A stretch of 64,000 nt of DNA from Anaerohalosphaera lusitana (GTDB lineage Bacteria > Planctomycetota > Phycisphaerae > Sedimentisphaerales > Anaerohalosphaeraceae), in NCBI RefSeq assembly GCF_002007645.1, contig NZ_CP019791.1, positions 1,674,001 through 1,738,000 of the forward strand, given 5' to 3'. Position numbers and translations under genes: made by a program. Positions 10,973 through 55,279 of the stretch are shown here, piece after piece. The notes beneath the pieces are model-generated. The model had not been told where the DNA came from. It worked only from the letters and a program-made list of their open reading frames with translations, and made no database searches. How positions within the stretch are numbered: position 1 is the first letter of the stretch; each line of letters starts with the position of its first letter.

Positions 10973-11715
10973 ATTGTAGGTCCTTGCTTACTTCCGAACA
11001 ATACCATTCTGCTTTTCAGGTCCTCTACGGTAAGATCGTATTTGTCCATGATCTCTTTCGCGGCGTCGACATTGGGGTTGTCAACATAGCCCCTACAGCC
11101 GAAGCATCTGTAACCTGCCGAAGGACACTTCGCTCCGCAGCCTGCACGGATGATCGGTCCCAGGCACAGCTCGCCGTACTCGTAGCGACATACGTTTTCT
11201 TTCGCCTTGCATTCTACGCAAACCGGATAATCCGGGATGACGGGCTTTTTGCCCATCAGCAGACAGCGGACTACATACGCGAATTCCTCGTTGTTCATCG
11301 GACAGCCGTGTATCTTGTAGTCTACTTCTACCACCTCGTCGAGCGCCTTCGTCATCTCGGTATCTACGTGCGGCTTGTCAGCCGAATCAGCGTAGACACA
11401 TTTTTTGACGTCCTTGAGATCGAAATTGTTCTTGAGCTTGTTGATCCCGCCGATAGTCGCACATGCACCGATCGCGATCAGAACCTTTGCCCGGCTTCTT
11501 ATGATCTCCAGGCGTTTCTCATCTTCGGGCCTGGTTATCGAACCTTCGATGATCGCGATATCATATTCGTGACTTTTTTCGCTCATTGCCTCCCGCCATT
11601 CGACAACGTCGACAGCGCCGATGAGATCGAGGATCGTCTCCTCTAAATTCACTATCTGGAGCTGACAACCTTCGCAGCAGGCAAAATCAAAAATTGCTAC
11701 TTTGGGTTTGTCCAT
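10969..11715 (-). CDS. [NiFe] hydrogenase, small (delta) subunit
   Basis: A 248-residue electron-transfer subunit holding three iron-sulfur clusters. The proximal cluster ligands are visible as CCEGC (13-17), GACATIGG and HGCPMN. The C-terminal part is cysteine-rich (CVEC, CRYEYGELC, GCGAKCPSAGYRCFGC) for the medial and distal clusters. No twin-arginine signal is present, so the enzyme is cytoplasmic, as expected for group 3. The gene starts one base after the stop of the gamma subunit and overlaps the large-subunit start by 4 bases. Confidence 0.93.
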   Translation of the reverse strand: MDKPKVAIFDFACCEGCQLQIVNLEETILDLIGAVDVVEWREAMSEKSHEYDIAIIEGSITRPEDEKRLEIIRSRAKVLIAIGACATIGGINKLKNNFDLKDVKKCVYADSADKPHVDTEMTKALDEVVEVDYKIHGCPMNNEEFAYVVRCLLMGKKPVIPDYPVCVECKAKENVCRYEYGELCLGPIIRAGCGAKCPSAGYRCFGCRGYVDNPNVDAAKEIMDKYDLTVEDLKSRMVLFGSKQGPTI

Positions 11716-24967: not shown

Positions 24968-26464
24968 TTATTGAGGGTCGGTGCCCGAGTGGCTAAAGGG
25001 GATGGGCTGTAAACCCATTGGCGAGAGCCTTCGCTGGTTCGAATCCAGCCCGGCCCAGTTTTTTATGCGCTTATTTTCCACGCCTAAGTCCTTGTTTTTA
25101 CTGCACTTATCATTACCTTCTAAAGAAGGTCTTTGAGGTGCTTCAATGTCGTTAGATGACGACTGGTGACATCCAGAGACAGGCGTTTTTGCAAGGTTTC
25201 TGTAAGCATTCCTGTAAGTTTTACTATAACTATTTTGGCCCTGATCTGAGGAAAAATCCGCGTTTTTGGGCCCGCCAGCGGCGAATTTCGGCAGATTAGC
25301 GACTGCATCGTGCTCCTGGCCCTTAAAAACGTGCGTATATCGGCTCATTGTGAGGTTTATAGAGCTGTGCCGCATCAATTCCTGGGCGACCTTTGGATGT
25401 ACGCCGCTGGCCGCCAGCAGACTGCCGAACGTGTGCCTGAGGGCATGGAAATCCAGCTTGCCTTCCTCGGTCTCGGGCTTGAGAAAATCGCTCTTGAGCC
25501 GTCTCTTGTACTCTTGAGGATTGTCCTGTGCCTTGGCGATCCAGGCAGTGCGGGCTTTATTCAGGTCATTACGCAGTCCGTCAGCCAGATGGCTAGCTAC
25601 GGGCATATCGAAAAGTTTGCACTTGGGTGTTTTGTCTTTGAGCAAGGACTTTAGCAGCTCAGCGGTCTCTTTACGCAACGGCAGGACGGCTTGCTTGCGG
25701 TTTTTGGTTTTCTTTTCCGACAGTGTTACTTTCAGTTGATCAAAGTCTAACGATGACACAGTCAGGCTCTGCAGCTCAGAAGCCCTCAGGCCGGTCTCAA
25801 GGGCCAATCGGTACAGCAGCGACCTCTCAGGGCCTTTCAAGCGTCTACGCCTGTCTGTGCATCTGTGGGTGTATGTGAGCAGCTCGGTTATCTCCTCTGG
25901 TGACATAGCACGTCTCTGCTGCATGTCTGATTTGGTCACGGAGACTTTTTTCAAGTATGCGATCGGACTCTCCGGGGCCCGGTTGTCTTTGACCATCCAG
26001 TTGCAGAATTGTTTCGCGGCCTGCTGGTAATCGTGGCAGGTCTTGACGGCCCTGATCTGTTTCATGTCGGCAATATAGCACTGGACCTTGCTGGCAGAGA
26101 TGTCCCTCCAGAACTTGAAACCGCAGCCGATTAAAACCTGTTCCGCTCGTCTGCGTGTTGTCCTGGCGTGGTGCTTTGTCATGCCGTCGGCAAGGATGGC
26201 TCGTTCGAATTCTTCGAGGTGCTCTTTGAGAGGTTTTTGGCGGTGGTCCTGGTAGCGGTCGAGCAGGCCGGCCTTGATCAGCTCCGTATCTTTTTCCATC
26301 TTGGCAGCTAACTGCAGGCTGGATGCTTTGTCCTTGAAGGCCTTCTGCCGCCTTCTTATGCCGTCAGCATCACGGTATTCGACATACCAGTGCTGCGACT
26401 TTTTAGTTACGGACTTGCCGTCTTTGTTCTTTACTGTGTACCGCTGTTTGAAAATACTCGCCAT
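24968..26464 (-). CDS. int: Phage-type tyrosine integrase, C-terminus antisense to tRNA-Tyr
   Basis: A 498-residue tyrosine recombinase. Residues 1-70 resemble the arm-binding domain, about 75-165 the core-binding SAM-like domain, and 185-390 the catalytic domain. Catalytic residues are Arg227 (GLRASE), a Lys around 252-254, His340/Arg343 (HALRHT), His366 (RHSS) and Tyr376 (SRYTH). After ~400 the sequence is a poorly conserved Ser/Asn-rich tail. The last ~30 codons (WAGLDSNQRRL...) are the reverse complement of tRNA-Tyr, and the stop lies just past the tRNA 5' end. The tail therefore depends on the integrated state. The enzyme would integrate and excise the element extending to the right. Confidence 0.92.
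   Translation of the reverse strand: MASIFKQRYTVKNKDGKSVTKKSQHWYVEYRDADGIRRRQKAFKDKASSLQLAAKMEKDTELIKAGLLDRYQDHRQKPLKEHLEEFERAILADGMTKHHARTTRRRAEQVLIGCGFKFWRDISASKVQCYIADMKQIRAVKTCHDYQQAAKQFCNWMVKDNRAPESPIAYLKKVSVTKSDMQQRRAMSPEEITELLTYTHRCTDRRRRLKGPERSLLYRLALETGLRASELQSLTVSSLDFDQLKVTLSEKKTKNRKQAVLPLRKETAELLKSLLKDKTPKCKLFDMPVASHLADGLRNDLNKARTAWIAKAQDNPQEYKRRLKSDFLKPETEEGKLDFHALRHTFGSLLAASGVHPKVAQELMRHSSINLTMSRYTHVFKGQEHDAVANLPKFAAGGPKNADFSSDQGQNSYSKTYRNAYRNLAKTPVSGCHQSSSNDIEAPQRPSLEGNDKCSKNKDLGVENKRIKNWAGLDSNQRRLSPMGLQPIPFSHSGTDPQ
24975..25057 (+). tRNA. tRNA-Tyr (anticodon GTA)
   Basis: A type II tRNA of 83 bases with a full cloverleaf. The acceptor GGGTCGG pairs with CCGGCCC, the anticodon stem is ATGGG/CCCAT with loop CTGTAAA, there is a long variable arm (GGC-GAGA-GCC), and the T arm is GCTGG-TTCGAAT-CCAGC. 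The discriminator is A, and CCA is not encoded. The gene is intact and serves as the integration site of the element to its right, whose integrase frame reads antisense through it. Confidence 0.95.
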
Positions 26465-26668
26465 TTGCTTGCCTCATAATTGCTGCATACCACCATCACA
26501 AATTCCTGTGACCGAGACCAGATTAGCCGTAACTCGCTGAAACTGCAAGTTTTTATCGGGCCAGATCACAACCACTTTAACTATCCCGATTCTATACGGC
26601 ACGAAAAAAACTGTCCTTGTTTTTCTGGAATTTTCATTTTTTCCGCATTTTTTGCAGGCAATTCTTAC

Positions 26669-27784
26669 CTAGGAATTGTTTGTGTACGGTTCGAATGTAT
26701 TCTCATCCTGAGTGAGAAGGGCGAGAAACTTGGTATGAACGTAGACCTTCTCCCTGCCGACTTGATTTTCTTCTAAAAGGCCTATTTCCGTCAAGCGTTT
26801 CAGGTAGACGGATGCTGTTTGTCTTGCGGCAATACCCTTTTCGATTAGATTTGGAATTCGGCAGTACGGCTGTTCAAAAACAGTTTCTACCAATTCTCGC
26901 GAGTAAGTGCGGGGCAACTTCTGCTTTACATAGTCACAGGTATGTTCAATCAGCTGCTGAGCGGCTTTGATTTTCCGTGTTGTCCATTTTGATGTTTCCT
27001 CGATCCCCTGAAGTACATAGATGATCCAGCCGTGCCAGTTGCCATTCTCGGTGACGTCTCGCAAGAGAGAGTAATACTGAGTTTTCGTTCTGATGAAATG
27101 CCGGCTGAGATAGAGTATTGGGGTTTTCAGAAGTTGTTCCTGTACTAGCAGTAAAGCATTGAGAATTCTGCCTGTTCTTCCGTTACCGTCAGTAAAAGGG
27201 TGAATTGCCTCAAACTGGTAATGCATCACTGCCATGCGGATCAGCGGATCAAGGCTGGTTTCTTCGTTGATAAACCTCTCCCAATTGGTGAGCTTTTCAC
27301 GGATGATCTGTTCGCCGGCAGGAGGTGTGTAGATGATCTGGCCTGTAGAAGGATTGGAAAGGGTTGTGCCGGGGACTTTTCGGATGTCTACCGCTGTATC
27401 TCTTATTGTGCTGCATATCTCAACTGCGATAGATGTGCACAACGGTTTTTTTTCGATAGCCTTACAGCCCTGATACAGGGCCTGACGGTATCTCAGGGCC
27501 TCTCTGGTGGCGGAATCGGCTGATTGCTTGCTGCCGGAAGCTAGCTGGAAAAGTTTATCTGTTGTTGTCACAATGTTTTCAATTTCAGAACTGAGCTGGG
27601 CTTCCAGTAACGGAATGGTGTGAATGAGAACTGACTTGTTTGGAAGAAGCTCACCTGCTTGCTCCAGAGCGGCTAATTCACTTCTGGCTAAAATGCACTG
27701 TTTTAGAATTGTCTTGCTCTCAATGTCCGCTTTGGGCGGGAGTAATGGCAAATCGTTGTAGGGTTGTGATCGCTTGAAGGCCAT
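26669..27784 (-). CDS. Fic-family protein adenylyltransferase
   Basis: A 371-residue Fic protein that transfers AMP (or another nucleotide moiety) to hydroxyl side chains. The active-site motif HPFTDGNGRTGR at 195-206 is canonical. SSEIEN at 65-70 matches the class II inhibitory helix motif (S/T)xxxE(G/N), so activity is probably auto-inhibited by Glu69. The C-terminal third (about 290-370) looks like a winged helix ('AARQTASVYLKRLTEIGLLEE'), as in many Fic/Fido regulators. It is the only evident accessory gene of the element and is expressed leftward from the AAACAT box cluster. It may modify a host or rival-phage target, or regulate itself; no partner antitoxin gene is seen. Confidence 0.92.
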   Translation of the reverse strand: MAFKRSQPYNDLPLLPPKADIESKTILKQCILARSELAALEQAGELLPNKSVLIHTIPLLEAQLSSEIENIVTTTDKLFQLASGSKQSADSATREALRYRQALYQGCKAIEKKPLCTSIAVEICSTIRDTAVDIRKVPGTTLSNPSTGQIIYTPPAGEQIIREKLTNWERFINEETSLDPLIRMAVMHYQFEAIHPFTDGNGRTGRILNALLLVQEQLLKTPILYLSRHFIRTKTQYYSLLRDVTENGNWHGWIIYVLQGIEETSKWTTRKIKAAQQLIEHTCDYVKQKLPRTYSRELVETVFEQPYCRIPNLIEKGIAARQTASVYLKRLTEIGLLEENQVGREKVYVHTKFLALLTQDENTFEPYTNNS

Positions 27785-28250
27785 ATTTGTATCCTTGAAA
27801 TATGTCGAAAAAACCTGAATTCATAAACATATCGACCTGAATATGTTTACATCATAAACATAAATGCCAAACATGTCGATGTTTTTCGGTTTTTTAAACA
27901 CGTCCATTTTGCCAAACATGGGTGAGAACAAGGTCAAATTCAGTTGAATACGGCAGATTTTGCATGCTGATAAATTTTGCAAAAATTTTTTTTGGGGCGA
28001 TGCCGGGGTTGTCACGAAAATTTTTTCGGTCCTGGTTTGTTACATGTTGTTACCCTTTTGCCTTAGTTGGCTCAGCGAGATTAGCTGATCCAACCGCTGG
28101 TCGGCTGTGACCGGAAAAATGGTGTTGCAGCTTCTTTTCGTGCCATTAATAATCTGCCTGCGACGTGCCAATCAGGGCGTTTTGAGGAACGCTCAGTTGA
28201 ATTGGCGAAAAGCGGTTATGTTTGGTTATTGCGAATAAAGGCAGGTGCGA
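27785..28250. promoter_or_regulatory. Divergent regulatory region with six AAACAT/ATGTTT boxes
   Basis: This 466-base gap separates the leftward Fic gene from the rightward replication genes. AAACAT occurs at 27825, 27856, 27869 and 27914, and its inverse ATGTTT at 27843 and 27879. Two pairs are palindromic: AAACATAT-8-ATATGTTT (27825-27848) and AAACAT-GTCG-ATGTTT (27869-27884). This fits an operator array or replication iterons. Two AAAAATTTTTT-type tracts (around 27978-27993 and 28016-28027) lie nearby and could be bent or easily melted. No gene is visible in the gap. Confidence 0.55.
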
Positions 28251-29168
28251 ATGGGCAAGCTGGACCACATACGGATCCCACGGGAAGTTCTTAAATTTGG
28301 GCTCAAGGGCAGTCATGAAATCTGCATCATGGGTCTGATCTACAGCTTTGGACGAAATGGGCTGATGCTGACGGATATGCAGTTGGCCAATTTTCTGCAT
28401 ACCAGCAGCCGGACGGTGGAAAGGGCGCTGAAGAAACTCAGGGACAGAGGTTTTGTCGTGAGCAAGAGAGCCGCGGGCTGCCGTCGGCGTCTTGTAGTGG
28501 GTCCTGCGGTTGAGTCGGTTCACAATGCAGGCAGTGCCCCGGACGCTCTTGGGCAATCTGGTTCTGATATGGACCCAGGTGTAACCGACCCGAGGTCGGG
28601 AGGGTGGCCGGTTTCAAGTCCCGACATATTGTCGGTCAATACCGACGTGACCGCGGGTTTTAATCCGACGTCAATGGGGGACGAAACCGACGTGACTGCC
28701 GGACAAAAGGAAAGTAATAAAATGAAAGTAGAGGAAGAGTCTTCTGCGGGGAGAAACTCGCATAACAGGGCCTTTGTGGATTATTGGAACGCGAAAGAGA
28801 ACCTGCCTGTTATCAGGGCGTTTTCGGACCAGAGGCAAAACAGGCTGAAAGTGCGGATGTCGGAAAGGGTGTTTGCCGACAACTGGCGAGAAGCGATCGA
28901 TAAGCTTTCTGCGTCTTCGTTTGCCACAGGTCACAATGATCGTGCCTGGCGGGCTGATGTGGACTGGCTGCTCAAGAACTCGACCAACTACATCAAGGTG
29001 TTGGAGGGCAAATATGACGATCGTGACTTACCTGGGCCTGTTAAGGGAGCTGGTGATACAAAGCAGGAGTTCACGCCTGAGATGGAAGAAGCGTTCCTGG
29101 CTGAAAACACACGAACAATAACCGACAGCGAAGCCAAAAAGCTCTTTGAGGAGATCGGATTAGCATGA
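28251..29168 (+). CDS. Replication initiator-like protein with N-terminal helix-turn-helix
   Basis: A 305-residue protein. Residues ~8-85 form a winged helix of the phage replication/initiator type ('ANFLHTSSRTVERALKKLRDRGFV'). Residues ~90-165 are a low-complexity linker. The C-terminal part has 'WRADVDWLLKN' followed by 'NYIKVLEGKYDD', a motif frequent at the end of phage replisome organisers and DnaD-like proteins. ATG 28251 is chosen over an in-frame GTG at 28245 because of AGG spacing. The stop overlaps the primase-helicase start (ATGA), so the two are coupled. It probably recognises the element's origin and loads the helicase. Confidence 0.7.
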   Translation: MGKLDHIRIPREVLKFGLKGSHEICIMGLIYSFGRNGLMLTDMQLANFLHTSSRTVERALKKLRDRGFVVSKRAAGCRRRLVVGPAVESVHNAGSAPDALGQSGSDMDPGVTDPRSGGWPVSSPDILSVNTDVTAGFNPTSMGDETDVTAGQKESNKMKVEEESSAGRNSHNRAFVDYWNAKENLPVIRAFSDQRQNRLKVRMSERVFADNWREAIDKLSASSFATGHNDRAWRADVDWLLKNSTNYIKVLEGKYDDRDLPGPVKGAGDTKQEFTPEMEEAFLAENTRTITDSEAKKLFEEIGLA

Positions 29169-30985
29169 GCTTAGTACGGCAGATGAAAAATCAAAAGGAG
29201 CGACTGGTCGAAGAATTGACCAGGGCCGGTGCAACGTGCAAGGGCAATACGGTTACATGTTTTTGCGGCGATACGCATCCCAGCGGCGGCATCTATCAGA
29301 ACGAAAATGGATGGCGGTACAAATGCCACAGGTGCGGATTCAGCGGCGATGTATTTGATGTGCAGGCAAAACGAGAAGGTCGCCGGCCGAGCGAAGTCTT
29401 GCGGGAATTCAGTAAAAGGCGAGATGGCCGTCCTGAGGTTCGCTCAGGGCTTGGAAAGGACAGAGAGGACTCTGGGTCAGGCTGGGGCGAGAAATCGCCT
29501 ACAGCGGTCGCAGATCGTCCGAGAAGGGGCAATTGCAGAGTGTTCGGTTCACTCGATGACCTCGAAACAAGCCTTCCTGGTGAAATAGTGAGCAAACACA
29601 GATATGCCGATGAGAAGGGCAGGCCTTTTCATTGTGTCTACCGGCTGCAGCTTCCGGACGGCAGCAAGACCTATCGGCCGGCACATTATCACAACGGCAG
29701 CTACATTCTCAAGGCACCGCCAAAGCTTTGGAAGCTGTACAATCTGCCTATCGTAGTGGAGTCCGAAGGCCTGATCATGGTAGAGGGTGAGAAAGCGGCC
29801 GATGCGCTGATCGAATGCGGATTCAAGGCAACGACCACGCCGGGTGGATCGGGTAAAGCAGCGTACACGGATTTGACGCCGCTCGCGGGCAAAAGCGTGG
29901 TTCTCTGGCCCGACAATGACCAGGCAGGCAGAGAGCACATGGACCAGGTAAAGGACATGCTGCTGGAGATGGATCCGCCTGCGGAACTGGACATCATCGA
30001 GCCTGCGGACATTTTGCTTGAAGAGAAGCAGGATGCGGCAGACTTTGTTGAGCGTGTTCGAGAACTCGAAACTGACATGACCACGGAAATAATTAATGCG
30101 CTCAATGAGAGCAAGCCTGTCGGTCCCGCGGACGGTCTGGCACAGCGTATCGAGGCGATGATAGCGGGAGAGTACAAGGCGATCGATCTGCCCTGGGGCG
30201 CGACGTCGAAGCTGACGAAGGCACTTTTACCCGGTACGGTTACGTTGTTGTGCGGCAGTCCTGGTGCTTCGAAAAGCTTTATGCTGCTGCAGGCGGTGGC
30301 ATTCTGGCTGGACTGCGGAGTGAAGGCGTGCGTGTACGAACTTGAGGAGGATCGTGAGTTTCATCTCATGCGGGCGCTGGCACAGCGGTCCGGGTTGGCG
30401 AGTATCACCGATCCTGACTGGGTGAAAAATAATCCGGACACAGCGAGAAATGCCTGTTTGGAGCATTACAAGTTTTTGTCCAAACTGGCCCGAGCGATGC
30501 AAGCGGCCCCAGATAAGCAGCCGACATATGAGCATGTGGTGCAGTGGGCCAGAGAAAAAGCCGAAGCAGGCAATCGGATCATATGCATCGATCCGATTAC
30601 CGCTGTTGCCCAGGATCCCAGGCCATGGGCTAAGGACAGCGAATTTCTTGAGCAGATCAAGACGATAGCAACGGCATACGGTTGTTCGTTTGTACTGGTG
30701 ACGCATCCCAGCAAGGAAATATTGCAGTCGCCGAATATGAATAAGCTGGCTGGTGGGGCGGCTTATTCGCGGTTTTCGCAGACGGTTCTCTGGCTGGAGA
30801 ATCATCCTGCCAAAGACAGCATGGTCAGAACGAGTGTGGGCCGAATAGAAGAGGGACACAACCGAACGCTGCACATAATCAAAGCGCGAAACAGCAGAGG
30901 GCAGGGGCTTTCGGTGGCTTGCGAGTTCAATGCGGAATCTCTAACACTGGATGAAGCGGGGCTTATAGTTGGCGAGAAAGATTAG
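29165..30985 (+). CDS. Primase-helicase (CHC2 zinc finger, TOPRIM, RecA-like ATPase)
   Basis: A 606-residue fusion resembling T7 gp4-type primase-helicases. A zinc-binding segment lies around residues 32-57 (CFCGDTHPSGG...CHRCGFSGD). The TOPRIM region has 'MVEGEKAADAL' near 203-213 and 'LWPDNDQAG' near 253-261. A RecA/DnaB-like domain has Walker A GSPGASKS around 362-369 and Walker B 'RIICIDPITAV' near 470. It would both prime and unwind the element's DNA. Coupled to the initiator upstream, it overlaps the convergent serine recombinase gene by 23 bases at its 3' end. Confidence 0.85.
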   Translation: MSLVRQMKNQKERLVEELTRAGATCKGNTVTCFCGDTHPSGGIYQNENGWRYKCHRCGFSGDVFDVQAKREGRRPSEVLREFSKRRDGRPEVRSGLGKDREDSGSGWGEKSPTAVADRPRRGNCRVFGSLDDLETSLPGEIVSKHRYADEKGRPFHCVYRLQLPDGSKTYRPAHYHNGSYILKAPPKLWKLYNLPIVVESEGLIMVEGEKAADALIECGFKATTTPGGSGKAAYTDLTPLAGKSVVLWPDNDQAGREHMDQVKDMLLEMDPPAELDIIEPADILLEEKQDAADFVERVRELETDMTTEIINALNESKPVGPADGLAQRIEAMIAGEYKAIDLPWGATSKLTKALLPGTVTLLCGSPGASKSFMLLQAVAFWLDCGVKACVYELEEDREFHLMRALAQRSGLASITDPDWVKNNPDTARNACLEHYKFLSKLARAMQAAPDKQPTYEHVVQWAREKAEAGNRIICIDPITAVAQDPRPWAKDSEFLEQIKTIATAYGCSFVLVTHPSKEILQSPNMNKLAGGAAYSRFSQTVLWLENHPAKDSMVRTSVGRIEEGHNRTLHIIKARNSRGQGLSVACEFNAESLTLDEAGLIVGEKD

Positions 30986-31694
30986 AAGCGGATGCATCTA
31001 CCCGCTGGAGTATCCGCTGTAACTTTGTGTGATGCCAACTCGAGTTGCGACATCTGATGCCTTCGCTTTCGAGTTGGCGGCATATAGCTCGAAGCGGCAG
31101 TCCCGATTCGCGCAAGATGATAATACGCTGGATTACCTTTTGTTCAGCTTGGCTTGGGATCAGGCGGTCAGGATCAGCGGGATCGATCGCAAAGCCGTAC
31201 GGCGGGTGTTTGCTCATGCGTTTGCCGTTGGCCTGATGACGCAGCATTGCGGCCTTGGTGCGGGCTGCTGTAACCTTGCGTTCATATTCGGCAAGTGTTT
31301 GGAGGATCTTGCGGACGAGCCAGTCCTCGTCGCTGTCTGCCCAGGTGCCTTCGCCCGATATGCTGACGATAGAAGCGCCTTTCTTTTTGACCGTGCGTTC
31401 GACGATGTCGGAGAGATAGACGCTGCGGGCCAGCCGGTCCAGTCGATAGACTACAAGGCATTGACCGCGTTTGAGAGCATTCATTGCCGCCCACAATCCT
31501 GGACGATCTTCATCTGAGCCGGAGAAAGCCTTGTCGCTGAACCTGGCGACGATCTCGATTTGGTTCTTGCTGCAGTAATCCTCACAAAGCTCGAATTGTG
31601 TTTCGATCGATTCGCACTGGTCGGCATTGCGCCGCGGTGAGAAGCGTGCGTAGAGAATTGCTTTTCGGCCTGGTTGGTGAGTTTGCCTGATCAT
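30963..31694 (-). CDS. Serine recombinase (resolvase/invertase family)
   Basis: A 243-residue serine recombinase. The catalytic Ser is Ser19 in 'LYARFSPRR', followed by 'ESIETQFELCEDY' and 'VYRLDRLARSVYL', which supply the catalytic arginines. The C-terminal segment (about 155-240) resembles a short 'recombinase' domain rather than the long one of phage integrases. It is the second site-specific recombinase of the element. It may resolve multimers, invert a segment or represent an older insertion. The 3' end overlaps the convergent primase-helicase gene. Confidence 0.85.
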   Translation of the reverse strand: MIRQTHQPGRKAILYARFSPRRNADQCESIETQFELCEDYCSKNQIEIVARFSDKAFSGSDEDRPGLWAAMNALKRGQCLVVYRLDRLARSVYLSDIVERTVKKKGASIVSISGEGTWADSDEDWLVRKILQTLAEYERKVTAARTKAAMLRHQANGKRMSKHPPYGFAIDPADPDRLIPSQAEQKVIQRIIILRESGLPLRAICRQLESEGIRCRNSSWHHTKLQRILQRVDASASNLSRQL

Positions 31695-32306
31695 GGCTAT
31701 AAGTGTAACAGAACGGGCTCAGAGGGGCAATAAGCAAATGCCAGTGAGAGATATGTTTTGGTGGACGATACCATGAATATGTCTTGAGATAACTCAGGTC
31801 GGCGGACCTCCTGCGCGCACGCGCGAGGCAAGTTGTAAATGAAGATCTTTTTGGGCTGCGTGTTTGGGCATGTTTGGACTGATAACGCTGAGACGCGATG
31901 CACCTTAGTTTCAGCATTGTCATGAATTGATGCCGTTTGGCACAATGCGTGCCCATCGTGCCGGTCGGCGGCATTGATTTATCGCTAGGGGTCGGGCGAT
32001 GAGGGGCAATTTGCATGTGTCATTTGTTATCAGTGTGAAGTGACAGAGCAGCTGCTTGCGGATGAAGAACAGATCAGATGAATTGAAAAAAGTTTGTGGG
32101 ACTCCTGCCTGCTCATATCCGAACCACACCCCCGCCCCCGTCTTCGACGGGACTCCTACTTAGCCCGAAAACCGCGAGAGCAATTTTTGAAAAACTTATG
32201 CGGCTAAGACCATGTTGAGTGCGTATGTGTTGACTGAAATTTTCGTGCCGTTGAGAATAGTGGAAAGGTAAGGAAAAATGTGAACTCTAATTGACAGGGC
32301 AATGCA
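31695..32306. other. 612-base gap with hairpin, no convincing gene
   Basis: Short open frames on the minus strand here have biased, Arg/Ser/Thr-rich translations and no ribosome site. A tight hairpin, CCCGTC-TTC-GACGGG (32137-32151), lies next to one of two copies of GGGACTCCT (32098 and 32149). A GC-rich alternating stretch (GCGCGCACGCGCG) is at 31814-31826. The end of the element could lie here or just past the AlpA gene, but no tRNA-derived repeat was found. Confidence 0.35.
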
Positions 32307-32585
32307 ATGAATTCACCGAAAAACATGATCATGGAAGCAAGTCGAAACTGCCAGAACAAACGAGAGGGTGAGGCGGAGCCGCAAATTCGTTTGATAACCG
32401 CCGAACAGTTCGGGCATATTCTGGGTCTTAGCAAAAGGCAGATATTCCGTCTGAACGCAACCGGCAGGGTGCCCAAACCGCTGAAGATCGGCGGGGCGGT
32501 TCGCTGGAACAAAGGCGAGATACATGCCTGGCTGCAGAAAGGGGCGCCGGATAGACTGACCTGGGAAGCGATACAGAGTAAATAA
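32307..32585 (+). CDS. AlpA/excisionase-like helix-turn-helix protein
   Basis: A 92-residue protein with a MerR/AlpA-type winged helix from about residue 28: 'LITAEQFGHILGLSKRQIFRL' followed by the wing 'GRVPKPLKIGGAVRWNKGEIHAWL'. This is the standard form of AlpA regulators and excisionases in satellites and integrative elements. The first ~25 residues are polar and may be untranslated if a later Met (7 or 9) is used. The ribosome site is weak. It probably promotes excision or integrase expression. Confidence 0.75.
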   Translation: MNSPKNMIMEASRNCQNKREGEAEPQIRLITAEQFGHILGLSKRQIFRLNATGRVPKPLKIGGAVRWNKGEIHAWLQKGAPDRLTWEAIQSK

Positions 32586-33643: not shown

Positions 33644-34276
33644 ATGAACAATTCAAAATGCGGATCTAAGACAGTCTTTCTTGTTCATCATGAGGACTGC
33701 GTTCGTGAATATCTGTATAACGAAATCCAGAAGCGAGGGTTTCGTTGTGTCGCCTTTGATTCACCAGATAAATGCATCCAGAGGTTAAGCGACTTTGAAC
33801 CGCCAGTACTCGTTGCTCCTCTCAAAATACCTAACAGTGATGGTTTGCACTTGTTAGAGCAAATCAAGCAACATTCACCATGCGTCAACTTAATCTTCTT
33901 TACCAGATATGCTACCATTGCACGAGCGGTAAAGGCAGTTAGGCAAGGCGCTTTCAGCCTGGTTGATCATAATTGCCATCATTCGAGATTGTTTGAAGAG
34001 ATAGAGATGGCAATTGAACATGGCGACCGCATCAATATGAATCTCGGGCTGACTCCAGCGGAGACGAAGATTTTCGAGCTGATACTTGAAGGTTACAGTA
34101 ACAAAGAAATAGCGAAGATGCTGCATCGCTCGGTTCGTACCATTGAGGATCACAGGGCCAGGATAATGAAAAAAGCCGGAGCTGAAAATGTTGTCGAATT
34201 GGTCAAGAAGGCGTTCAGCCTGGGATTAATATCCAATAGTGCCGGCCATTATGAAGTGAGTGCGGAGTGCGGTTAA
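33644..34276 (+). CDS. FixJ/NarL-type regulator with degenerate receiver (first of tandem pair)
   Basis: A 210-residue DNA-binding regulator. Residues ~10-128 fold like a response-regulator receiver, but the phospho-acceptor position holds Pro59 (VLVAPLKIPNSDGL against the family VxxDxxMPxxDG). The acidic pair is replaced by His15-His16 and the conserved Lys by His. Residues ~138-195 are a LuxR-type helix-turn-helix ('LTPAETKIFELILEGYSNKEIAKMLHRSVRTIEDH'). Phosphorylation control is therefore unlikely; it may respond to a ligand or partner, or act constitutively. A paralogue follows at 34402. The position beside surface-protein and polysaccharide genes suggests they are the targets. Confidence 0.88.
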   Translation: MNNSKCGSKTVFLVHHEDCVREYLYNEIQKRGFRCVAFDSPDKCIQRLSDFEPPVLVAPLKIPNSDGLHLLEQIKQHSPCVNLIFFTRYATIARAVKAVRQGAFSLVDHNCHHSRLFEEIEMAIEHGDRINMNLGLTPAETKIFELILEGYSNKEIAKMLHRSVRTIEDHRARIMKKAGAENVVELVKKAFSLGLISNSAGHYEVSAECG

Positions 34277-34401
34277 AGTCATATCAGTGGAGAGTGTGAT
34301 ACGGATTGGTATGAAATTTGACAACAAATTCCATATCAATTTTTCTGTTCCAGTAATATCCACGATTGATTTAGAAAGCTCAGGCAAGTATCACTTCCGC
34401 T

Positions 34402-34998
34402 ATGGAAAATATAAAGGAAAACGGCAACCACCCTGTATGTGTGATCCATCCTGAGAAGTCGTTTCGGGAGATTATAAAACAGCACATTTGTGAAAAAGGC
34501 TTTGAATGCCACTGTTATGGGGGGAATGATGGATTTTTTCAGGACTTTGATGGAGATCAGGCTGGTGTATTGATAACGCCTGCACAAACCCGGGATGGTT
34601 TTGATAATGAAATTAAGCAGATAAAGCAGACTTGTCCGGGATTCCAGGTGATCGCTCTGGCAGATAATGCCTCCGTCGAAGAAGCGGTTGAACTGATGAG
34701 GAAAGGTGCGTTTGGTGTGGTCGAACCAAGCAAATTTGATCAGCAGCTGTTTAAAGAGCTTGAAAATGCTTTTGAGCAGATAGGCTGTTATTCAAAGCTG
34801 GCAGACCTTACGCCAACAGAGAAGGTGGTACTTGGGCATCTCCTTGAAGGTATGGGCAATAAACAAATAGCCAGGAAAATGCATCGATCGGTACGTACGA
34901 TAGAGGACCATCGGGCTAACATCATGAAAAAGATGGAAGCTGCCAATGTCGTCGATCTAGTTAAAAAGGCCCTGGCATTTGGATATTGTGATTTGTAG
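34402..34998 (+). CDS. FixJ/NarL-type regulator with degenerate receiver (second of tandem pair)
   Basis: A 198-residue paralogue of the preceding regulator. In the receiver-like domain (about 10-125) the acceptor Asp is again Pro (Pro60 in GVLITPAQTRDG), the acidic pair is His16-Pro17, and the Thr and Lys switch residues are also lost. The LuxR-type DNA-binding domain (about 133-190) is well kept and nearly the same as in the first copy ('MHRSVRTIEDHRANIMKK'). The two recognition helices are almost identical, so both probably bind the same sites. The start codon has only a weak ribosome site. Confidence 0.86.
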   Translation: MENIKENGNHPVCVIHPEKSFREIIKQHICEKGFECHCYGGNDGFFQDFDGDQAGVLITPAQTRDGFDNEIKQIKQTCPGFQVIALADNASVEEAVELMRKGAFGVVEPSKFDQQLFKELENAFEQIGCYSKLADLTPTEKVVLGHLLEGMGNKQIARKMHRSVRTIEDHRANIMKKMEAANVVDLVKKALAFGYCDL

Positions 34999-36282: not shown

Positions 36283-37485
36283 ATGAACTCAACAAGCACA
36301 AAAACGACAGTCGTGCTGCTGGTTATGGCGGTGTTAGCCGGATCTGTCATCGCAGGTGCGCAGAACACCGGCCAGGCAATGGAGGCGATGGCCAATCGGT
36401 TGGTCGACAACCAGAACGTTGACGGATTCTGGAATGCCGAGCCATACCACACGGGAAGCATTGTCCCGGGTCTGGTGGCCGGTTATGAGTATGCATGTGA
36501 TCAGTCATATCTAGATGCGGCAGGGATGGCTTGTGAGTTTATTATCTGGGAGGCACAGGGCAACTATTTCGGCGATGAGGCTTACGCGTTAGTCCAATAC
36601 GGTGATGTTGCCGATGAGCCTTACTATCTGACTGAGGTATATGATTTTTATCAGTGGGTCGATGAGGTTTTGCTGGGCAGCACCGAGCAATACATTGCCG
36701 ATTTTGAAAATGGCACCGAGCCTAGCAGTGCTGTTTTTTATGTGGCGCACCATACGGTTGCTGCTTACGCGGTAGATTCGCCGGCCAAGTATAAATGGAG
36801 GCAAGGGTTAAGGCATCATTTGGCAAGGGTCGATGACACATCGTCGTTCCCTCTGATGGGGATGGCGGTTGCGGCGTGGGCGTTTGCCCAGACAGATGCC
36901 GGGCTTGATTCTACGCCTGTTACTCCAGCGGGTGAGACGCCGGCAAGCGACTACTGGGATGGTGTTACCCTGGCTGATCTGCCCGGTAAGGTTGCCGATC
37001 TTCAGGTCCAAAGGGCGCAGAATGATGGCACCTTTTTTGAAAAGCTGTTGCCTGAGGAAAACGGATTTGAATCCGGATACAGCGAAGACACGATTTATGC
37101 CGTCCTGGCTTTACAGCAGGCAAAGGAGGCCGGGATCGAGGTTAACTACAGCGTAGCCGATGCCCGTGAAAAGATGCTCGGCGGTATAGAGATGGTAACC
37201 AACGGCAGTAGGTTGCTCGGCAAGGTGTATGGTCATTTGACTGATCCGGATCCGACCGACACTTATCATTTTTATGCAGGAAAAATGCTGTCTGCATTGG
37301 ATGCGGCCTCGATACCGACCGATCTCAATGGCGACGATGTGATCGATATTAAGGATTTGGAGATACTGGCGGCAAACTGGCTGTCTGATTCTGGCTGTCA
37401 GTGTGAGCGAGTAGATATTAATGATGACGGCGTAGTTAATTATCCAGACTTCGCTGAAATAGTGAAAAACAAATCAGAGAAATAA
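36283..37485 (+). CDS. Secreted dockerin-domain protein with alpha-helical toroid-like repeats
   Basis: A 400-residue exported protein with a signal peptide at 1-25. Residues ~30-330 are helical repeats with motifs such as 'DGFWNAEPYHTGSIVPGLVAGYEYA' spaced through the chain, resembling alpha/alpha-toroid proteins (polysaccharide lyases, terpene-cyclase-like folds). No catalytic site is recognised. The C-terminus is a type I dockerin with two calcium loops, DLNGDDVIDIKDL near 347-359 (followed by EILAANWL) and DINDDGVVNYPDF near 379-391. Dockerins with 'LAANWL' are abundant in Sedimentisphaerales. No cohesin is seen here. GGAG lies just upstream of the ATG. Confidence 0.8.
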   Translation: MNSTSTKTTVVLLVMAVLAGSVIAGAQNTGQAMEAMANRLVDNQNVDGFWNAEPYHTGSIVPGLVAGYEYACDQSYLDAAGMACEFIIWEAQGNYFGDEAYALVQYGDVADEPYYLTEVYDFYQWVDEVLLGSTEQYIADFENGTEPSSAVFYVAHHTVAAYAVDSPAKYKWRQGLRHHLARVDDTSSFPLMGMAVAAWAFAQTDAGLDSTPVTPAGETPASDYWDGVTLADLPGKVADLQVQRAQNDGTFFEKLLPEENGFESGYSEDTIYAVLALQQAKEAGIEVNYSVADAREKMLGGIEMVTNGSRLLGKVYGHLTDPDPTDTYHFYAGKMLSALDAASIPTDLNGDDVIDIKDLEILAANWLSDSGCQCERVDINDDGVVNYPDFAEIVKNKSEK

Positions 37486-38024: not shown

Positions 38025-39527
38025 TTGAACCTCAGTTGTTACAAAAAAATCAAGACGCTTTGTTTGTGCGTGTTTACTGGATTTTTTGCGGTCCTGATTT
38101 CTGGCTGTGCTGAATCGGACAGCAAAATGCTTTCGACTCCAGAGCAGCTCGAAATGTTTCACGCCGCAGGGCCCATAAAGACCGAGATCGATGTCGAACA
38201 GCTGATGCAGGCAAAGGTCAGTCTTGATGAGTATCGGCTTGTGCAGGGCGATATGCTTGAATTTCAGATGCCTGCGGTTCTTGCAAAGACTGATGTTCAG
38301 ATAGAATCAGAGCAGTTCTTCATCCACCGCACGCGTGTCGCGAGTGATGGAACAATCCAAATACCTGTGATAGGGCAGGTGCATGCAGCTGGTAAAACGC
38401 TGGTTGAGCTTGAGAAGACAGTTACCGATGCGTTTTATCCCAGGTATGCCAGGAACAAACCCGCGATCGTTGCTAACATCTCTCAGTACCAGAAGGCCAA
38501 GGTCTCTATAACCGGTGCCGTGGAAAATCCTGGTGTGTACAGCCTGAGAAGCGATCAGATGTCACTGGTCTCGCTTATCATGGAAGCAGGGGGTGTTGTA
38601 GAAGATGGGGCGGCGGTAATAAAGATATTCAATCCAGGCGCTCGGACAGCTAAGGTTGGTGGTCCGGAAGGGATCGTGATAACTGCTGCCCAGATGCCGG
38701 ATAGTAAGCAGGTTCAGTTCTCGTTTGTCTCACAGGCAGGCGGCAGCAAGGGGGTTTTGAAACTCAAACGTGGTGGGGAGCTGATTTTCTCAGATCTATT
38801 AGATGTTGCTAAGGCTGAGGACCGCGAAGGATTTATTGGTGAGGTTACTTCGCAGTTCAATGACATTCCCAAGAGTTTTGTAAGTAAGCGGCTAAATGCA
38901 TTAGCTCAGGCTGTTGCCCCTGATTCAGTTGATACAGAAGAAGCAAATCCAAAGCATGCAGCTGTAAAAGAGGATACTTTGCCAACGGCTGCCAAACCAA
39001 TCGAGGAAGAGCCTGAAAAGACGAAAAAAGACCATAATACCAAAACGCAGGATACGGCCGGCAAGGTCAGAAAGCTGACCCTTCCGGTTAAAGGGCTAAA
39101 TGTGCCCTTTAGTGATGTCGCATTGCAGGACGGTGCTTCTGTCGAGGTTGAGGCGTTAAATCCCGAGACGTTTACCGTGATTGGCCTGGTGAAGAAGGCT
39201 GGTGCGTTTCCTTATCCTGCGAACGTAAACTACAACCTTCTGCAGGCATTGGCTTTTGCAGGGGGTGTGGATCCGGTGACGGATCCTCGATATGTGAGAG
39301 TATACAGGCAGGACAACGATGGGCAGGTGGTGGATGCTACTTTCAAGCTTAATGATACACTGCCCGCAAGTGGTGCCAGTGTTTCGATAAAACCTGGCGA
39401 CGTTGTCTCAGTGGAACATACGCCGCGTACAAGGCGGAATATGCTGATGGCTGAGATATTAGGCGTCAGGTTGGGTGTCGGTGCTACGTATAACATGATT
39501 GACGGTAAGGATCTCCGCAATTACTAG
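38025..39527 (+). CDS. wza: Polysaccharide export outer-membrane lipoprotein, Wza-like
   Basis: A 500-residue export protein. The lipoprotein signal has lipobox ISGC with the lipidated Cys at 28. A Poly_export domain begins near residue 65 ('YRLVQGDMLEFQMP'). A first SLBB domain follows at about 155 ('VSITGAVENPGVYSL') and a second near 390 ('FTVIGLVKKAGAFPYP'). Between them is a charged linker (about 305-345, EEPEKTKKDHNTKT). It forms the periplasmic and outer-membrane exit channel with the Wzc-like protein downstream. Translation starts at TTG (38025), supported by AGGAG at good spacing. It is longer than typical Wza (~380). Confidence 0.88.
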   Translation: MNLSCYKKIKTLCLCVFTGFFAVLISGCAESDSKMLSTPEQLEMFHAAGPIKTEIDVEQLMQAKVSLDEYRLVQGDMLEFQMPAVLAKTDVQIESEQFFIHRTRVASDGTIQIPVIGQVHAAGKTLVELEKTVTDAFYPRYARNKPAIVANISQYQKAKVSITGAVENPGVYSLRSDQMSLVSLIMEAGGVVEDGAAVIKIFNPGARTAKVGGPEGIVITAAQMPDSKQVQFSFVSQAGGSKGVLKLKRGGELIFSDLLDVAKAEDREGFIGEVTSQFNDIPKSFVSKRLNALAQAVAPDSVDTEEANPKHAAVKEDTLPTAAKPIEEEPEKTKKDHNTKTQDTAGKVRKLTLPVKGLNVPFSDVALQDGASVEVEALNPETFTVIGLVKKAGAFPYPANVNYNLLQALAFAGGVDPVTDPRYVRVYRQDNDGQVVDATFKLNDTLPASGASVSIKPGDVVSVEHTPRTRRNMLMAEILGVRLGVGATYNMIDGKDLRNY

Positions 39528-39781
39528 CACCTGAGCCTGATCAGGGAGGATGTCATTTGTAAAACGATGCAAGTTCCAGCTGTGGGGAAGGTGCGCGCAG
39601 ATTGAGAACTTCTCGCTTGGTTTTGCAACGGCATGTGGTGGTCGGTTCTTTTAGACCTTAAGACCACATACGCCGAAAACTTGTTTGTGTTCAATTTAAG
39701 GTGGCATGTACACCGACGGGGACGGAGTCTATCAACACTTTCTAACCGCCTATTTCCGTCTGATACAAAGGTTTTTGTACT
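39528..39781 (+). other. 254-base leader before the Wzc-like gene
   Basis: No gene is visible. ATGTGGTG and GACCACAT around 39632-39679 can pair, and CCTGATCAGG (39536-39545) is a palindrome without a T-run. This may be an attenuator or processing region between wza and wzc. Confidence 0.3.
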
Positions 39782-41959
39782 ATGAACGAATCATTTAAAA
39801 CTCCCCAGGTGAATAGCTCGCACGAAGAGGCAAACGGCGATTTTGAAGGCCGCGAGGAAGGTTTTCAAAGGAGCCTGTTTGAGGTTGCCTGGGCCAACAG
39901 GTGGCTGATACTTGCCACGACCATCTTGTCGCTTACAGCTGCTTTTATCTATCTTGCCAAGGCTACGCCCATATTTACCAGTTCTTCTCGTGTTTATGTC
40001 GAACAGTCCGGGCCAAAGATACTCGATGAAACGCAGGGTGTGATGACCCAGTCCAAGAATTACCTGTACACACAGGCCGAGTTGATGAAATCCACACCCA
40101 TCATCAAAGAGGCGATCGAAGAGAATGATATGGCGTCCATGCGGACGTTTGACGAAATCGACAATCCAACAGGTTATCTTAAAAAGCAGCTGCAGGTCAG
40201 CGTTGGAAAAAAGGATGACATACTCAGCGTTTCGTTCGATTCGCCATATCCGGCAGAAGCGGCTCATGTTGTAAACGAAATTATCGATTCTTATATCACA
40301 TACCACTCTCAACGGAAAAGATCCACTTCTGCTGAGGTTCTAAAGATCCTGCAGAAGGAAAAGACCAAGCGGGCAAAAGAACTCGAAGAAAACCTGCACG
40401 CAATGATGAATTTTAAGCGAGAAAATGAGGGACTCGCTTTTGAGAACAATGGAAATAATATAATACTCGATCGTCTGGCAAACCTCTCGCAGGCGGTCAC
40501 CGATGCCCAGCTGGCCTTGATAGAAGCGAAAAGTGAATATGACACTGTCAAAGCAATGGTCTCCGATCCTAAAAAGGTTAAACAATTCGTCGAAGCTAAG
40601 CGGGTAAGCGGGTTGTATGTCTCATCCGGGACGGAAAATACACGTCTAAAGGCCGAGCTGGACAGGCTGGAACTTAGGTTGGCGGACTTGAAAAGGCAAG
40701 TGACAGAGGACCATCCGTCTGTAATTGCGTTAGAAGAGAAAATTGCCTCAATTGAAACAGACTTGGAAGAATCTGATCAAGAGTTCGCAAGTGCACAGCT
40801 GGCGGTAGCCCGGGAAAGGCATATGGCGGCGAAAAAGCAGCTCGATGAAGTTTCGACATTCTTCGAAGAACAAAGGGCTGCTGCGATGGATCTCAATGAT
40901 CAGCTTGCTCAGTATACCATACTTGAATCTGAGTACCAGCAGAGCAAGAAGCTCAACGACATCCTCGATGAGCGGATTAAAGAGCTCAATATCACTGAGG
41001 ACGTTGGTGCTCTCAATATAAGCATACTTGAGGTTGCACGGGCACCTAAGGATCCCAGCAAGCCGCAAAAGGCTCGTGTAGCGGCCATGGCCCTTGTGCT
41101 GGGATTGATGGCTGGAGGCGGTCTGGCACTTCTCAGAGACTTTATGGACAAGCGGATTCGCGGTGCCGAGGAGATTACCGCGTTGCTCGGTCTGCCTGTG
41201 CTGGGAGTTATCCCTCTTATGTCAAAACGCAAGTCCATGGCCGAAAGAGGCCGCAGGGTTGCTCTAAATCCCTCATCACCCGTTTCGGAGGCCTACCGTA
41301 CGGTACGTACAGCGGTATTCTTCGGCGTACCAAAGGAATCTTGCAAGACAATCCTTGTCACATCTCCTCAGCCTGCTGAGGGTAAAAGTACACTCATCAG
41401 CAATCTTGGCATAACCATGGCCCAGGCCGGGCAGAAGACACTTATCGTTGATGCTGATTTTAGAAGACCGAAACAGCATGAGGTTTTCGAATTCGATCGA
41501 GAGCCCGGTATCTCCAATATTCTGGCCGGGGAATCGCAGATAGACTCTGTTATCAAGAATACAAGTATTGATGGATTGGATGTGCTTGCTTGCGGGCCGT
41601 CCATACCAAATGCTTCAGAACTTTTGAACAGCGATGAGTTTGGAGAGCTGCTTAGCAGCCTGAAGGCAAAGTATGACAGAATCCTGCTCGACGCACCTCC
41701 TGTAATGCCCGTCGCGGATGCACGTATCCTGGCCGCGATGTGCGATGTTACGTTGCTTGTTCTCCGTGCCGACAGCTCCACACGAAATGTTAGTGTAGCA
41801 GCCTGTGAAGCACTTGCCGGGGTTGGTGCAAGGCCTCTTGGGGTTGTCGTAACTGCACCAGGTAAAAAGATGTCCAAATACGGCTACGGCTACGGATATG
41901 GCTATGGCTACGGCTACTCATATGAAGAAGATGATAAATCGTCTGCCAAGTCCGCTTAA
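39782..41959 (+). CDS. wzc: Wzc-like chain-length regulator and tyrosine autokinase
   Basis: A 725-residue inner-membrane protein. The Wzz domain includes a first membrane span near 38-58 and a long coiled-coil periplasmic part (about 180-420). The second span is near 438-456. The cytoplasmic BY-kinase has Walker A 'SPQPAEGKST' near 527-536, Walker A' 'TLIVDADFRRP' and Walker B 'RILLDAPPVMP'. The C-terminus is a Gly-Tyr repeat (GYGYGYGYGYGYSY) for autophosphorylation, which controls polymer length with the phosphatase encoded next. The kinase and transmembrane parts are fused, as in proteobacterial Wzc. Confidence 0.93.
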   Translation: MNESFKTPQVNSSHEEANGDFEGREEGFQRSLFEVAWANRWLILATTILSLTAAFIYLAKATPIFTSSSRVYVEQSGPKILDETQGVMTQSKNYLYTQAELMKSTPIIKEAIEENDMASMRTFDEIDNPTGYLKKQLQVSVGKKDDILSVSFDSPYPAEAAHVVNEIIDSYITYHSQRKRSTSAEVLKILQKEKTKRAKELEENLHAMMNFKRENEGLAFENNGNNIILDRLANLSQAVTDAQLALIEAKSEYDTVKAMVSDPKKVKQFVEAKRVSGLYVSSGTENTRLKAELDRLELRLADLKRQVTEDHPSVIALEEKIASIETDLEESDQEFASAQLAVARERHMAAKKQLDEVSTFFEEQRAAAMDLNDQLAQYTILESEYQQSKKLNDILDERIKELNITEDVGALNISILEVARAPKDPSKPQKARVAAMALVLGLMAGGGLALLRDFMDKRIRGAEEITALLGLPVLGVIPLMSKRKSMAERGRRVALNPSSPVSEAYRTVRTAVFFGVPKESCKTILVTSPQPAEGKSTLISNLGITMAQAGQKTLIVDADFRRPKQHEVFEFDREPGISNILAGESQIDSVIKNTSIDGLDVLACGPSIPNASELLNSDEFGELLSSLKAKYDRILLDAPPVMPVADARILAAMCDVTLLVLRADSSTRNVSVAACEALAGVGARPLGVVVTAPGKKMSKYGYGYGYGYGYGYSYEEDDKSSAKSA

Positions 41960-41986
41960 GTTATTCAAATATTATCATATTGCATA

Positions 41987-42790
41987 ATGGTATCTGAGAA
42001 CAAATTTATTGACATTCATTGCCACTGTCTTCCCGACCTTGATGACGGTCCCAGGAATATGGCCGAGTCCATACAGCTGTGTCAGGCCCTGGTTGAGGAT
42101 GGGGTAAAGGAGGTCATTGCAACTCCTCACTGGCTGGGAAGATATGATGGTAAGTACGGTTTGTCGGAAGTGCTGACGTCCGCGGAAATACTGCAGAAAG
42201 AGCTCATCAAGCAAAATATTCCATTGGATATTCTTTTGGGAGCGGAGGTCAGAATCGATGAGCGGCTCATGACGATGATCGATGCTGGAAGGATTCCAAC
42301 CCTTGGCATGAGCGGCAAGTATCTGCTGCTTGAACTGTTCAATGAGTTTGCCTTTGATATTTCGCCCATAGCTGAACAGTTGCACAAAAGAAATATCATC
42401 CCACTGATAGCACATCCGGAAAGAGTTCCTGCGATCATAAGGAATAAATCACTTCTGTACAAATGGCACATCAAGGGTGTAAGGCTGCAGGTTACAGCGG
42501 AAAGTCTGACAGGTGCCGCTGGTCCCCAGGCTCGCGATAATGCCCTGGAATATATATCAAACGGGTGGGTCGCCGCTGTTGCGTCGGATGCCCATGGACT
42601 CGCGGTGAGATGGCCAGCAATGAAAGAGGCCTACGGGATAGTGTGTGAGGCCTTTGGAGAAGAAGTAGCACAAGCTCTTTTCATTACCAATCCTGGACGA
42701 ATCGCCAGCGGTGTGGATCTTTGCATCATTCCGCCATGCATATCGCCTCAAAGATCCGTTTCTGGGATGCTTAAAAAGATCTTTGGATAG
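41987..42790 (+). CDS. CpsB/YwqE-type tyrosine-protein phosphatase (PHP fold)
   Basis: A 267-residue metal-dependent phosphatase of the PHP superfamily. Metal ligands are visible in 'DIHCHCLPDLDDGP' (residues ~6-19), 'ATPHW', 'GAEVRID', 'IAHPERV' and 'ASDAHGL'. It dephosphorylates the tyrosine tail of the kinase encoded 27 bases upstream, closing the phosphorylation cycle that sets chain length. The kinase-phosphatase order is the same as in capsule loci. The ribosome site is weak, so translation may depend on the upstream gene. Confidence 0.9.
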   Translation: MVSENKFIDIHCHCLPDLDDGPRNMAESIQLCQALVEDGVKEVIATPHWLGRYDGKYGLSEVLTSAEILQKELIKQNIPLDILLGAEVRIDERLMTMIDAGRIPTLGMSGKYLLLELFNEFAFDISPIAEQLHKRNIIPLIAHPERVPAIIRNKSLLYKWHIKGVRLQVTAESLTGAAGPQARDNALEYISNGWVAAVASDAHGLAVRWPAMKEAYGIVCEAFGEEVAQALFITNPGRIASGVDLCIIPPCISPQRSVSGMLKKIFG

Positions 42791-42845
42791 AGTGCAACAA
42801 TTATCTGATGTTTTCGGATGTAAACGATATTAAGCAATAGATCTG

Positions 42846-47304: not shown

Positions 47305-47391
47305 AGAATGTTTCCGTATGTCGGACCATTTGTTTCAGTGAGACCGACAGTTAATGAACAGGTTGAAATGCTACTGAGGGTGGTAAGTGGA

Positions 47392-48681: not shown

Positions 48682-48735
48682 GCGTGGTTCTGAAAAATGG
48701 TTCTAAAATGACAATGAATATAAGGCATAGCGAAT

Positions 48736-53104: not shown

Positions 53105-53143
53105 AGGCAGAGTCGAAATAGTTAAATAGTGAGTTGGTTCGTG

Positions 53144-55276: not shown

Positions 55277-55279
55277 GTC

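Follow-up and report, generated by a model that had tools for sequence, protein, structure and literature searches.

A ∼44.3-kb island at tRNA-Tyr in Anaerohalosphaera lusitana whose integrase reading frame crosses the attachment site and appears to change its C-terminus on integration

The DNA analyzed here, called the window below, is a stretch of 64,000 nucleotides from the planctomycete Anaerohalosphaera lusitana (contig NZ_CP019791.1, positions 1674001-1738000 of a one-contig genome of 4,250,973 bases); coordinates are in window numbering unless stated, and an L followed by a number labels an individual locus. Its subject is an integrative island that begins at a tRNA-Tyr gene, carries a tyrosine integrase, and is predicted from its attachment (att) sites to reach beyond the right end of the window. 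The features that define it are as follows.

24975-25057, plus strand: tRNA-Tyr(GTA), the target gene (ARAGORN, Rfam)
24992-25065, plus strand: att identity block on the tRNA side, with mismatches to the far copy solely at 25002 and 25063
24968-26464, minus strand: tyrosine integrase in its integrated form, 498 residues (PF00589, expectation value (E) 2.5e-25)
24975-64000: portion of the island inside the window, marked by a direct repeat of the tRNA-Tyr 3′ end; the island ends at 69325 (position 8325 of L004)

A DNA search of the organism's own genome (E ≤ 1e-3) found the tRNA-Tyr gene as the sole full-length copy, a far att copy at 69252-69325 (contig 1743252-1743325), 5.25 kb past the window end, and a third, weak match that is a tRNA-Ser gene. 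The far copy is identical to the tRNA-side block at 72 of 74 bases and spans tRNA-Tyr from base 18 to its 3′ end plus 8 bases further. In a local alignment across 24.5-70.5 kb, this copy scored 138, with a runner-up of 23 and maxima of 19-33 in 20 shuffles; the same alignment detected no internal att copy between tRNA-Tyr and 69252 and no tRNA fragment near 32.6 kb. Because 69252-69325 is the single second att copy in this range, the att-bounded unit is, as judged from sequence, ∼44.3 kb long. The initial annotation had described a compact element at 24975-32585, and a boundary at ∼32.6 kb had to be rejected since no att copy is present there; the unit measures 44.3 kb rather than 7.6 kb. Thus tRNA-Tyr and a 3′ fragment in direct orientation enclose the integrase gene, as in a tRNA genomic island. 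The G+C content is uneven along the island, and a comparison of its two ends gave no signal of shared arm-type repeats (one shared 10-mer, with 1.03 expected). The peptidase encoded on the left flank is present in 10 of 59 genomes, this one included, and its other copies are 40-52% identical.

The integrase open reading frame (ORF) reads antisense through the entire tRNA-Tyr gene, a property overlooked in the initial annotation. When the junction of an excised circle was reconstructed, the frame stayed open through the joined attachment site (attP) and gained 71 codons from 69263-69048 on the minus strand, 44 kb away. The integrated ORF terminates in IPFSHSGTDPQ, and the circle ORF terminates in the 71-codon tail, which ends with the conserved motif W..LP..IR..I. 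Using a model of 11 tails that was built without the window element, this tail ranked first among 2809 six-frame segments in 81 kb (15.6 bits, E 0.0011; E 0.15 for the runner-up). The residues R227, H340, R343, H366 and Y376 are invariant across 12 sequences; these conserved catalytic residues are encoded upstream of att and are left intact by integration. Integration thus appears to swap the C-terminus of the integrase.

The integrase family is common in this phylum: members were found in 31 of 59 near relatives (E ≤ 1e-30), 69 of 296 genomes of the class (E ≤ 1e-50) and 80 of 297 genomes of the phylum (E ≤ 1e-40), each count including the present genome and the three genome sets overlapping. 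We reconstructed the junction for each element with an available far att copy, in two sets of loci; all fractions refer to loci fetched. The first set included 38 of 77 new match places from the class search (L107 and L116, which duplicate L069 and L078, were left out), and the second comprised 20 places outside the class, taken from the phylum search with high scores and long contigs favoured. The first set contains 64 distinct integrase ORFs, and antisense tRNAs of 10 isotypes overlap 46 of them; in the second set 16 of 20 ORFs have such an overlap and 4 do not, with tRNA-Glu bringing the total to 11 isotypes. The codon phase relative to the tRNA 3′ end is spread 16/16/14 across the 46 loci, so a single fixed tRNA frame does not account for the tails being in frame.

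All 13 distinct bounded elements of the first set, both elements of the present genome among them, remain open for 51-82 codons past the point of divergence, and 12 of the 13 encode a homologous tail (W..LP in 11, W..LN in L318). As a control, we shifted the junction by 1 or 2 bases; only 1 of 26 shifted frames reached 51 codons and none contained the motif. In the second set an att copy was found for 7 elements, 6 of which open in frame for 58-79 codons, compared with 1 of 14 shifted frames of at least 51 codons (55) and none with the motif. A model of 14 tails scored 5 of these 7 tails at 14.9-50.4 bits, against a best score of 8.6 among 4000 shuffled tails. Joined, the two sets give 19 of 20 bounded elements open in frame and 17 of 20 with a tail, the window island included. 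Since 12 first-set tails were used to build the model, it is the second set, together with the window island scored by the 11-tail model, that provides independent tests. The tail pattern is absent from the last 120 residues of all 66 ORFs of the integrated set. For 52 rows that lacked a known att copy, the 14-tail model also pointed to a right end on the integrase strand in 5, of which one is a duplicate. In the two of these that include a tRNA, L086x (L330 joined to L086) and L320, a tRNA 3′ fragment is present at the tail, at distances of 20.3 and 6.0 kb. A weak match in L305 (E 0.021) is on the opposite strand.

The second family member of the present genome lies at tRNA-Ser, in a 24.8-kb element with a far att copy of 63 bases (100% identity); it carries a related primase, AlpA, and ORFs that by eye resemble a type I restriction-modification system. 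Another match to the tRNA-Ser region (L104, contig 3872300-3872378), 66 kb from the tRNA, comprises the last 24 tRNA bases and ∼55 beyond at 97% identity, and may have been left behind by an older element or a tandem one. L098:9146-9796, from a different genome of the same taxonomic family, contains the decayed C-terminal half of a related integrase at tRNA-Tyr (50% identical, with an in-frame stop).

A natural counterpart of the reconstructed circle occurs in viral contigs. An integrase scan of a viral contig collection returned 46 loci, and the integrase ORFs were inspected in 30 of them (L331-L360). On two of these contigs, L341 (43.2 kb) and L348 (49.4 kb), a single ORF encodes both the integrase and the tail, no complete tRNA lies close to the 3′ end of this ORF, and the fused tails score 47.6 and 28.0 bits, respectively, with the 11-tail model. 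An alignment made for L341 shows that its integrase ORF contains the 3′ part of tRNA-Arg and not the 5′ half. L348 also carries a large terminase and a primase-helicase gene. Two 444-residue ORFs with identical first 50 residues (L348:2909-4243 and 10234-11568) flank its integrase gene on either side. A scan of the viral contigs for the tail gave 5 loci: L388 is the L341 contig again, L387 encodes the same peptide on another contig, and in L389-L391 the tail lies close to a contig end with no integrase ahead. In L389:1-235 the tail follows what by eye appears to be a 5′ tRNA segment in sense orientation, compared with an antisense 3′ segment elsewhere. The integrase had weak partial matches only in plasmid and phage collections (for plasmids, among the matches listed), and the L341 tail had no match in either collection.

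We modeled the L341 integrase with AlphaFold2 from 14 aligned sequences. The model (mean predicted local distance difference test (pLDDT) score 71.5, predicted template modeling score 0.49) is confident up to about residue 380, and is followed by a linker, residues 411-534, with pLDDT under 50, and by two short helices (538-545 and 552-557); pLDDT is near 80 for residues 541-560. Because the tail is contained in only two rows of the alignment, the predicted hairpin rests mostly on single sequences. Judged by position, the antisense-tRNA residues are predicted to fall within the linker.

The remaining genes of the island are listed below. Only part of the ORFs in 45820-64000 was scanned.

26669-27784, minus strand: SoFic-type Fic adenylyltransferase (Fic_N, Fic and SoFic-like_C domains)
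28245-29168, plus strand: replication initiator/helicase loader, O-like and DnaD-like (phrog_10469, E 3.2e-24; phrog_345, E 4.7e-19)
29165-30985, plus strand: primase-helicase (phrog_239, E 2.9e-41; PF13481)
30963-31694, minus strand: short serine recombinase (PF00239)
32307-32585, plus strand: AlpA-type regulator, a probable excision factor by presumed role (PF05930, E 6.1e-7)
33644-34998, plus strand: two LuxR-type regulators with receiver domain (PF00196, PF00072; the second receiver match is under the Pfam cut-off)
36283-37485, plus strand: dockerin-domain protein (PF00404)
38025-45377, plus strand: exopolysaccharide export and polymerisation, namely Wza-like, Wzz/tyrosine-kinase-like, CpsB/CapC and Wzy_C-TPR proteins (PF02563, PF02706, PF19567, PF04932)
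within 45820-64000, plus strand: exopolysaccharide synthesis, namely glycosyltransferase family 4, flippase, glycosyltransferase group 1, GFO/IDH/MocA enzyme, heparinase II/III-like protein, formyltransferase, deacetylase, UDP-GlcNAc epimerase and UDP-sugar dehydrogenase
63820-64872: NAD epimerase, crossing the window end
67266-68725, minus strand (L004:6266-7725): AbiEii/AbiEi-type toxin-antitoxin pair, just inside the far att copy

One end of the island is therefore a phage-type integration and replication module (integrase, AlpA, initiator and primase-helicase), and the remainder is cargo, mainly the exopolysaccharide cluster, plus Fic and AbiEi/AbiEii. Pfam and PHROG profile matches recovered every gene named in the initial annotation at its position, and those six (integrase, Fic, initiator, primase-helicase, serine recombinase and AlpA) include neither capsid nor mating genes. 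Neither structural phage genes nor relaxase or type IV secretion genes were found among the 28 island proteins covered by our Pfam scan, with 8 larger ORFs outside the scan. The earlier proposal of a satellite or integrative plasmid layout holds insofar as the element integrates site-specifically, brings its own replication genes and has no capsid gene among the genes we examined; it does not hold as to compactness, the far end being at 69.3 kb and an exopolysaccharide cluster lying inside. We regard that cluster as accessory because the genome has two more Poly_export loci outside the island and because a Wzy-like protein occurs in 14 of 59 genomes, this one included. Poly_export clusters are widespread, with at least one locus in every one of 40 genomes searched. 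A regular partnership of the cluster with the integrase is unsupported: of the 13 other genomes with the Wzy-like protein, only G044 has both on one contig, where the two genes lie on opposite sides of the tRNA.

The Fic protein is likewise accessory to integrase-bearing elements, as far as sequence comparison can tell. It carries the Fic motif HPFTDGNGRTGR at residue 195 and matches structures of the SoFic adenylyltransferase over nearly its full length (residues 3-367, up to 490 bits). The sequence SSEIEN at residue 65 fits the inhibitory motif found near the N-terminus in class II Fic proteins. No match to the Fic query (E ≤ 1e-4) was obtained in 55 related stretches (36 + 19), some of which are the same region and many of which hold a partial element, with later-fetched stretches outside this check. 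Fic was accordingly rejected as a defining factor, and the suggestion that it serves in defence or helper interference was not borne out: it is a known enzyme and close SoFic relative, and nothing ties it to phage interference.

Satellite-like relatives are real. Att-bounded elements of 4.3-6.8 kb whose integrases belong to the same family are found at other tRNA genes, and a 6.6-kb element between tRNA-Arg and its fragment (L097) encodes a small terminase subunit (PF03592, 4917-5339, minus strand), integrase and AlpA. The layout of L097, in a genome of the same family as the host, resembles that of phage-inducible chromosomal islands (PICIs). For the 44.3-kb island itself, a satellite lifestyle is conjectural. 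In a 13.6-kb element at tRNA-Arg, a large terminase (L078:13855-16215, minus strand) contains an internal homing-endonuclease domain in an intein-like arrangement.

The replication genes also have viral relatives. Among the best 80 of at least 495 matches, the primase-helicase has near full-length relatives in at least 8 viral contigs (33-40% identity), and its closest named relatives, among the matches listed, include Sedimentisphaerales and Phycisphaerales bacteria. In a pool of seven primase-bearing viral contigs (80 of 127 ORFs scanned), large terminase and portal were among 25 of 110 families, without assignment to an owner contig. The serine recombinase is 53% identical (120/225) to one in viral contig L187, which also has a related primase. 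Six viral contigs measure 40-50 kb (L188, L190, L193, L194, L341 and L348), close to the 44 kb of the island, a size that would suit packaging into a phage head; this argument is suggestive only, because the other contigs span 11-101 kb and may be incomplete.

Taken together, we think it probable that this is a 44.3-kb integrative island in which integration cuts the integrase gene within the linker and moves the tail to the far end, leaving an altered integrase that would favour staying integrated. In the excised circle, the integrase gene would run through attP and encode the catalytic domain, a disordered linker that includes an antisense tRNA 3′ segment, and a C-terminal helical hairpin. 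Recombination with the tRNA gene would cut it in the linker: the catalytic part would remain at the tRNA, now ending in antisense-tRNA codons, and the integrase of the integrated state would lack its native tail because the hairpin codons are carried to the far island end. Full-length integrase would be made in the circle, and integration would exchange its hairpin for antisense-tRNA residues, the most likely outcome being an integration-dependent shift in integrase activity or site preference that favours the integrated state. Excision might then proceed via the tail-less integrase with AlpA, which we assume to act in excision as it does in the phage-inducible chromosomal minimalist islands (PICMIs) discussed below, or via full-length integrase from another copy; the island may spread, perhaps in phage particles. 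The chances are about even for a broader reading in which phages and islands of Planctomycetota share an integrase with attP in a disordered linker, integration into any of many tRNA genes cuts off the hairpin codons, shifts them as far as 44 kb to the other end of the element and thereby records the integrated state in the DNA in a form that alters what the integrase can do, and the linker location of attP permits switching between tRNA targets without harm to the enzyme.

Several observations weigh against this interpretation. Of the 30 inspected viral contigs, 28 have no tail in the integrase ORF; some of these ORFs run into a contig edge, others finish without a tail, and 4 of the 28 have a tRNA near the 3′ end. 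No tRNA overlap is seen for 18 of the 64 integrases in the first set (5 of which run to a contig edge), and 33 of the 46 that do overlap one had no far att copy in the available DNA, mostly less than 20 kb. L112, the most distant integrase of the first set, lacks the tail motif; in the second set, L406 closes after 13 codons (tail score −0.5 bits), and the L401 tail, at 5.3 bits, is within the shuffled range and was counted as tail-less. The window tail, with its 15.6 bits, is divergent. An empty tRNA-Tyr site was not seen, and no same-genus genome was found. We infer both excision and the effect of tail loss from sequence, and because the catalytic residues are intact after integration, loss of activity does not follow.

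Among other explanations, the one that fares best concerns origin and is compatible with the exchange of the integrase C-terminus: the island might descend from a prophage in which cargo took the place of the capsid genes. We consider this possible but doubtful. Viral contigs, some of them bearing terminase and portal genes, contain relatives of both the replication module and the integrase, and the island is similar in size to several of these contigs; however, the scanned island proteins include no structural phage gene. It is less likely that the element is bounded as we propose but that the exopolysaccharide cluster entered a smaller element after integration, or that two elements fused. 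The abundance of Poly_export clusters and the variation in G+C would fit such a history, whereas the absence of an internal att copy argues against it. It is very unlikely that the tail is an independent small gene located at the right end and matches the integrase frame by coincidence: although the window tail is short and divergent and most inspected viral contigs have none, the tail is in frame in 13 of 13 and 6 of 7 elements of the two sets despite a varying tRNA frame, and it is part of a single ORF in L341 and L348. Least credible is a compact satellite or integrative plasmid ending at ∼32.6 kb, with the exopolysaccharide genes belonging to the chromosome and the 69-kb tRNA copy an unrelated relic, since, despite the existence of small relatives with the same integrase family, the DNA near 32.6 kb lacks an att copy and the 69-kb copy bears the tail expected of the integrase family on the correct strand and in the correct frame.

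The preferred reading, an island whose integrase exchanges its C-terminus, has two consequences. With a common bacterial family whose conserved tail is removable, the long-standing question of what controls integration direction would become open to experiment, since two natural forms of a single enzyme could be compared. In addition, the tail is a practical sign for far island ends: it confirmed the right end here, extending a supposed 7.6 kb to 44 kb, and pointed to right ends missed by DNA search at five other loci (one a duplicate).

Comparison with known systems places the island between several types. Like the tRNA islands catalogued by Islander, it is a cargo-bearing island bracketed by a tRNA gene and a fragment of it, but its integrase spans attP; the Islander report notes the Mx8 and SSV integrases, which extend across attP, as an exception to the usual layout (PMC4383910). 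With PICIs and PICMIs it shares integrase, AlpA and primase, with no capsid genes seen on the island, and AlpA, which resembles excisionases, is described in the PICMI report as required for excision of a PICMI (PMC10803314). In contrast to PICMIs, the island lies in tRNA-Tyr and not at fis, measures 44 kb, has no known helper, and encodes a primase that matches only PF13481 in Pfam (E ≤ 0.01) and not DUF3987 or DUF5906. Archaeal integrases of the Sulfolobus spindle-shaped virus (SSV) type also cross attP, with att sites that often lie in tRNA genes, and their gene is broken by integration, as stated in two reports (PMC8371274, PMC4383910), one of which, a review, calls self-disrupting integrases exclusively archaeal (PMC8371274). 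The island integrase differs in that its catalytic residues are not split off and in that its family is bacterial, as is that of Mx8. We found no description of this attP-spanning family in the open-licence literature, among the matches listed, which is weak evidence for the absence of an earlier one. The kind itself is already known from Mx8 and SSV and, as far as we found, had been reported in bacteria for one phage only. In Myxococcus phage Mx8, attP is reported to lie inside the integrase coding sequence, and integration creates a new 3′ end and changes specificity without inactivating the enzyme (PMC6070905, citing Tojo 1996 and Magrini 1999). The frame of the island integrase likewise crosses attP, and its C-terminus would change on integration; compared by description, the island family differs from Mx8 in being spread over a phylum, in using 11 tRNA isotypes among the loci examined, in occurring both on islands of varied cargo and in viral contigs, and in that the severed part is a conserved hairpin.

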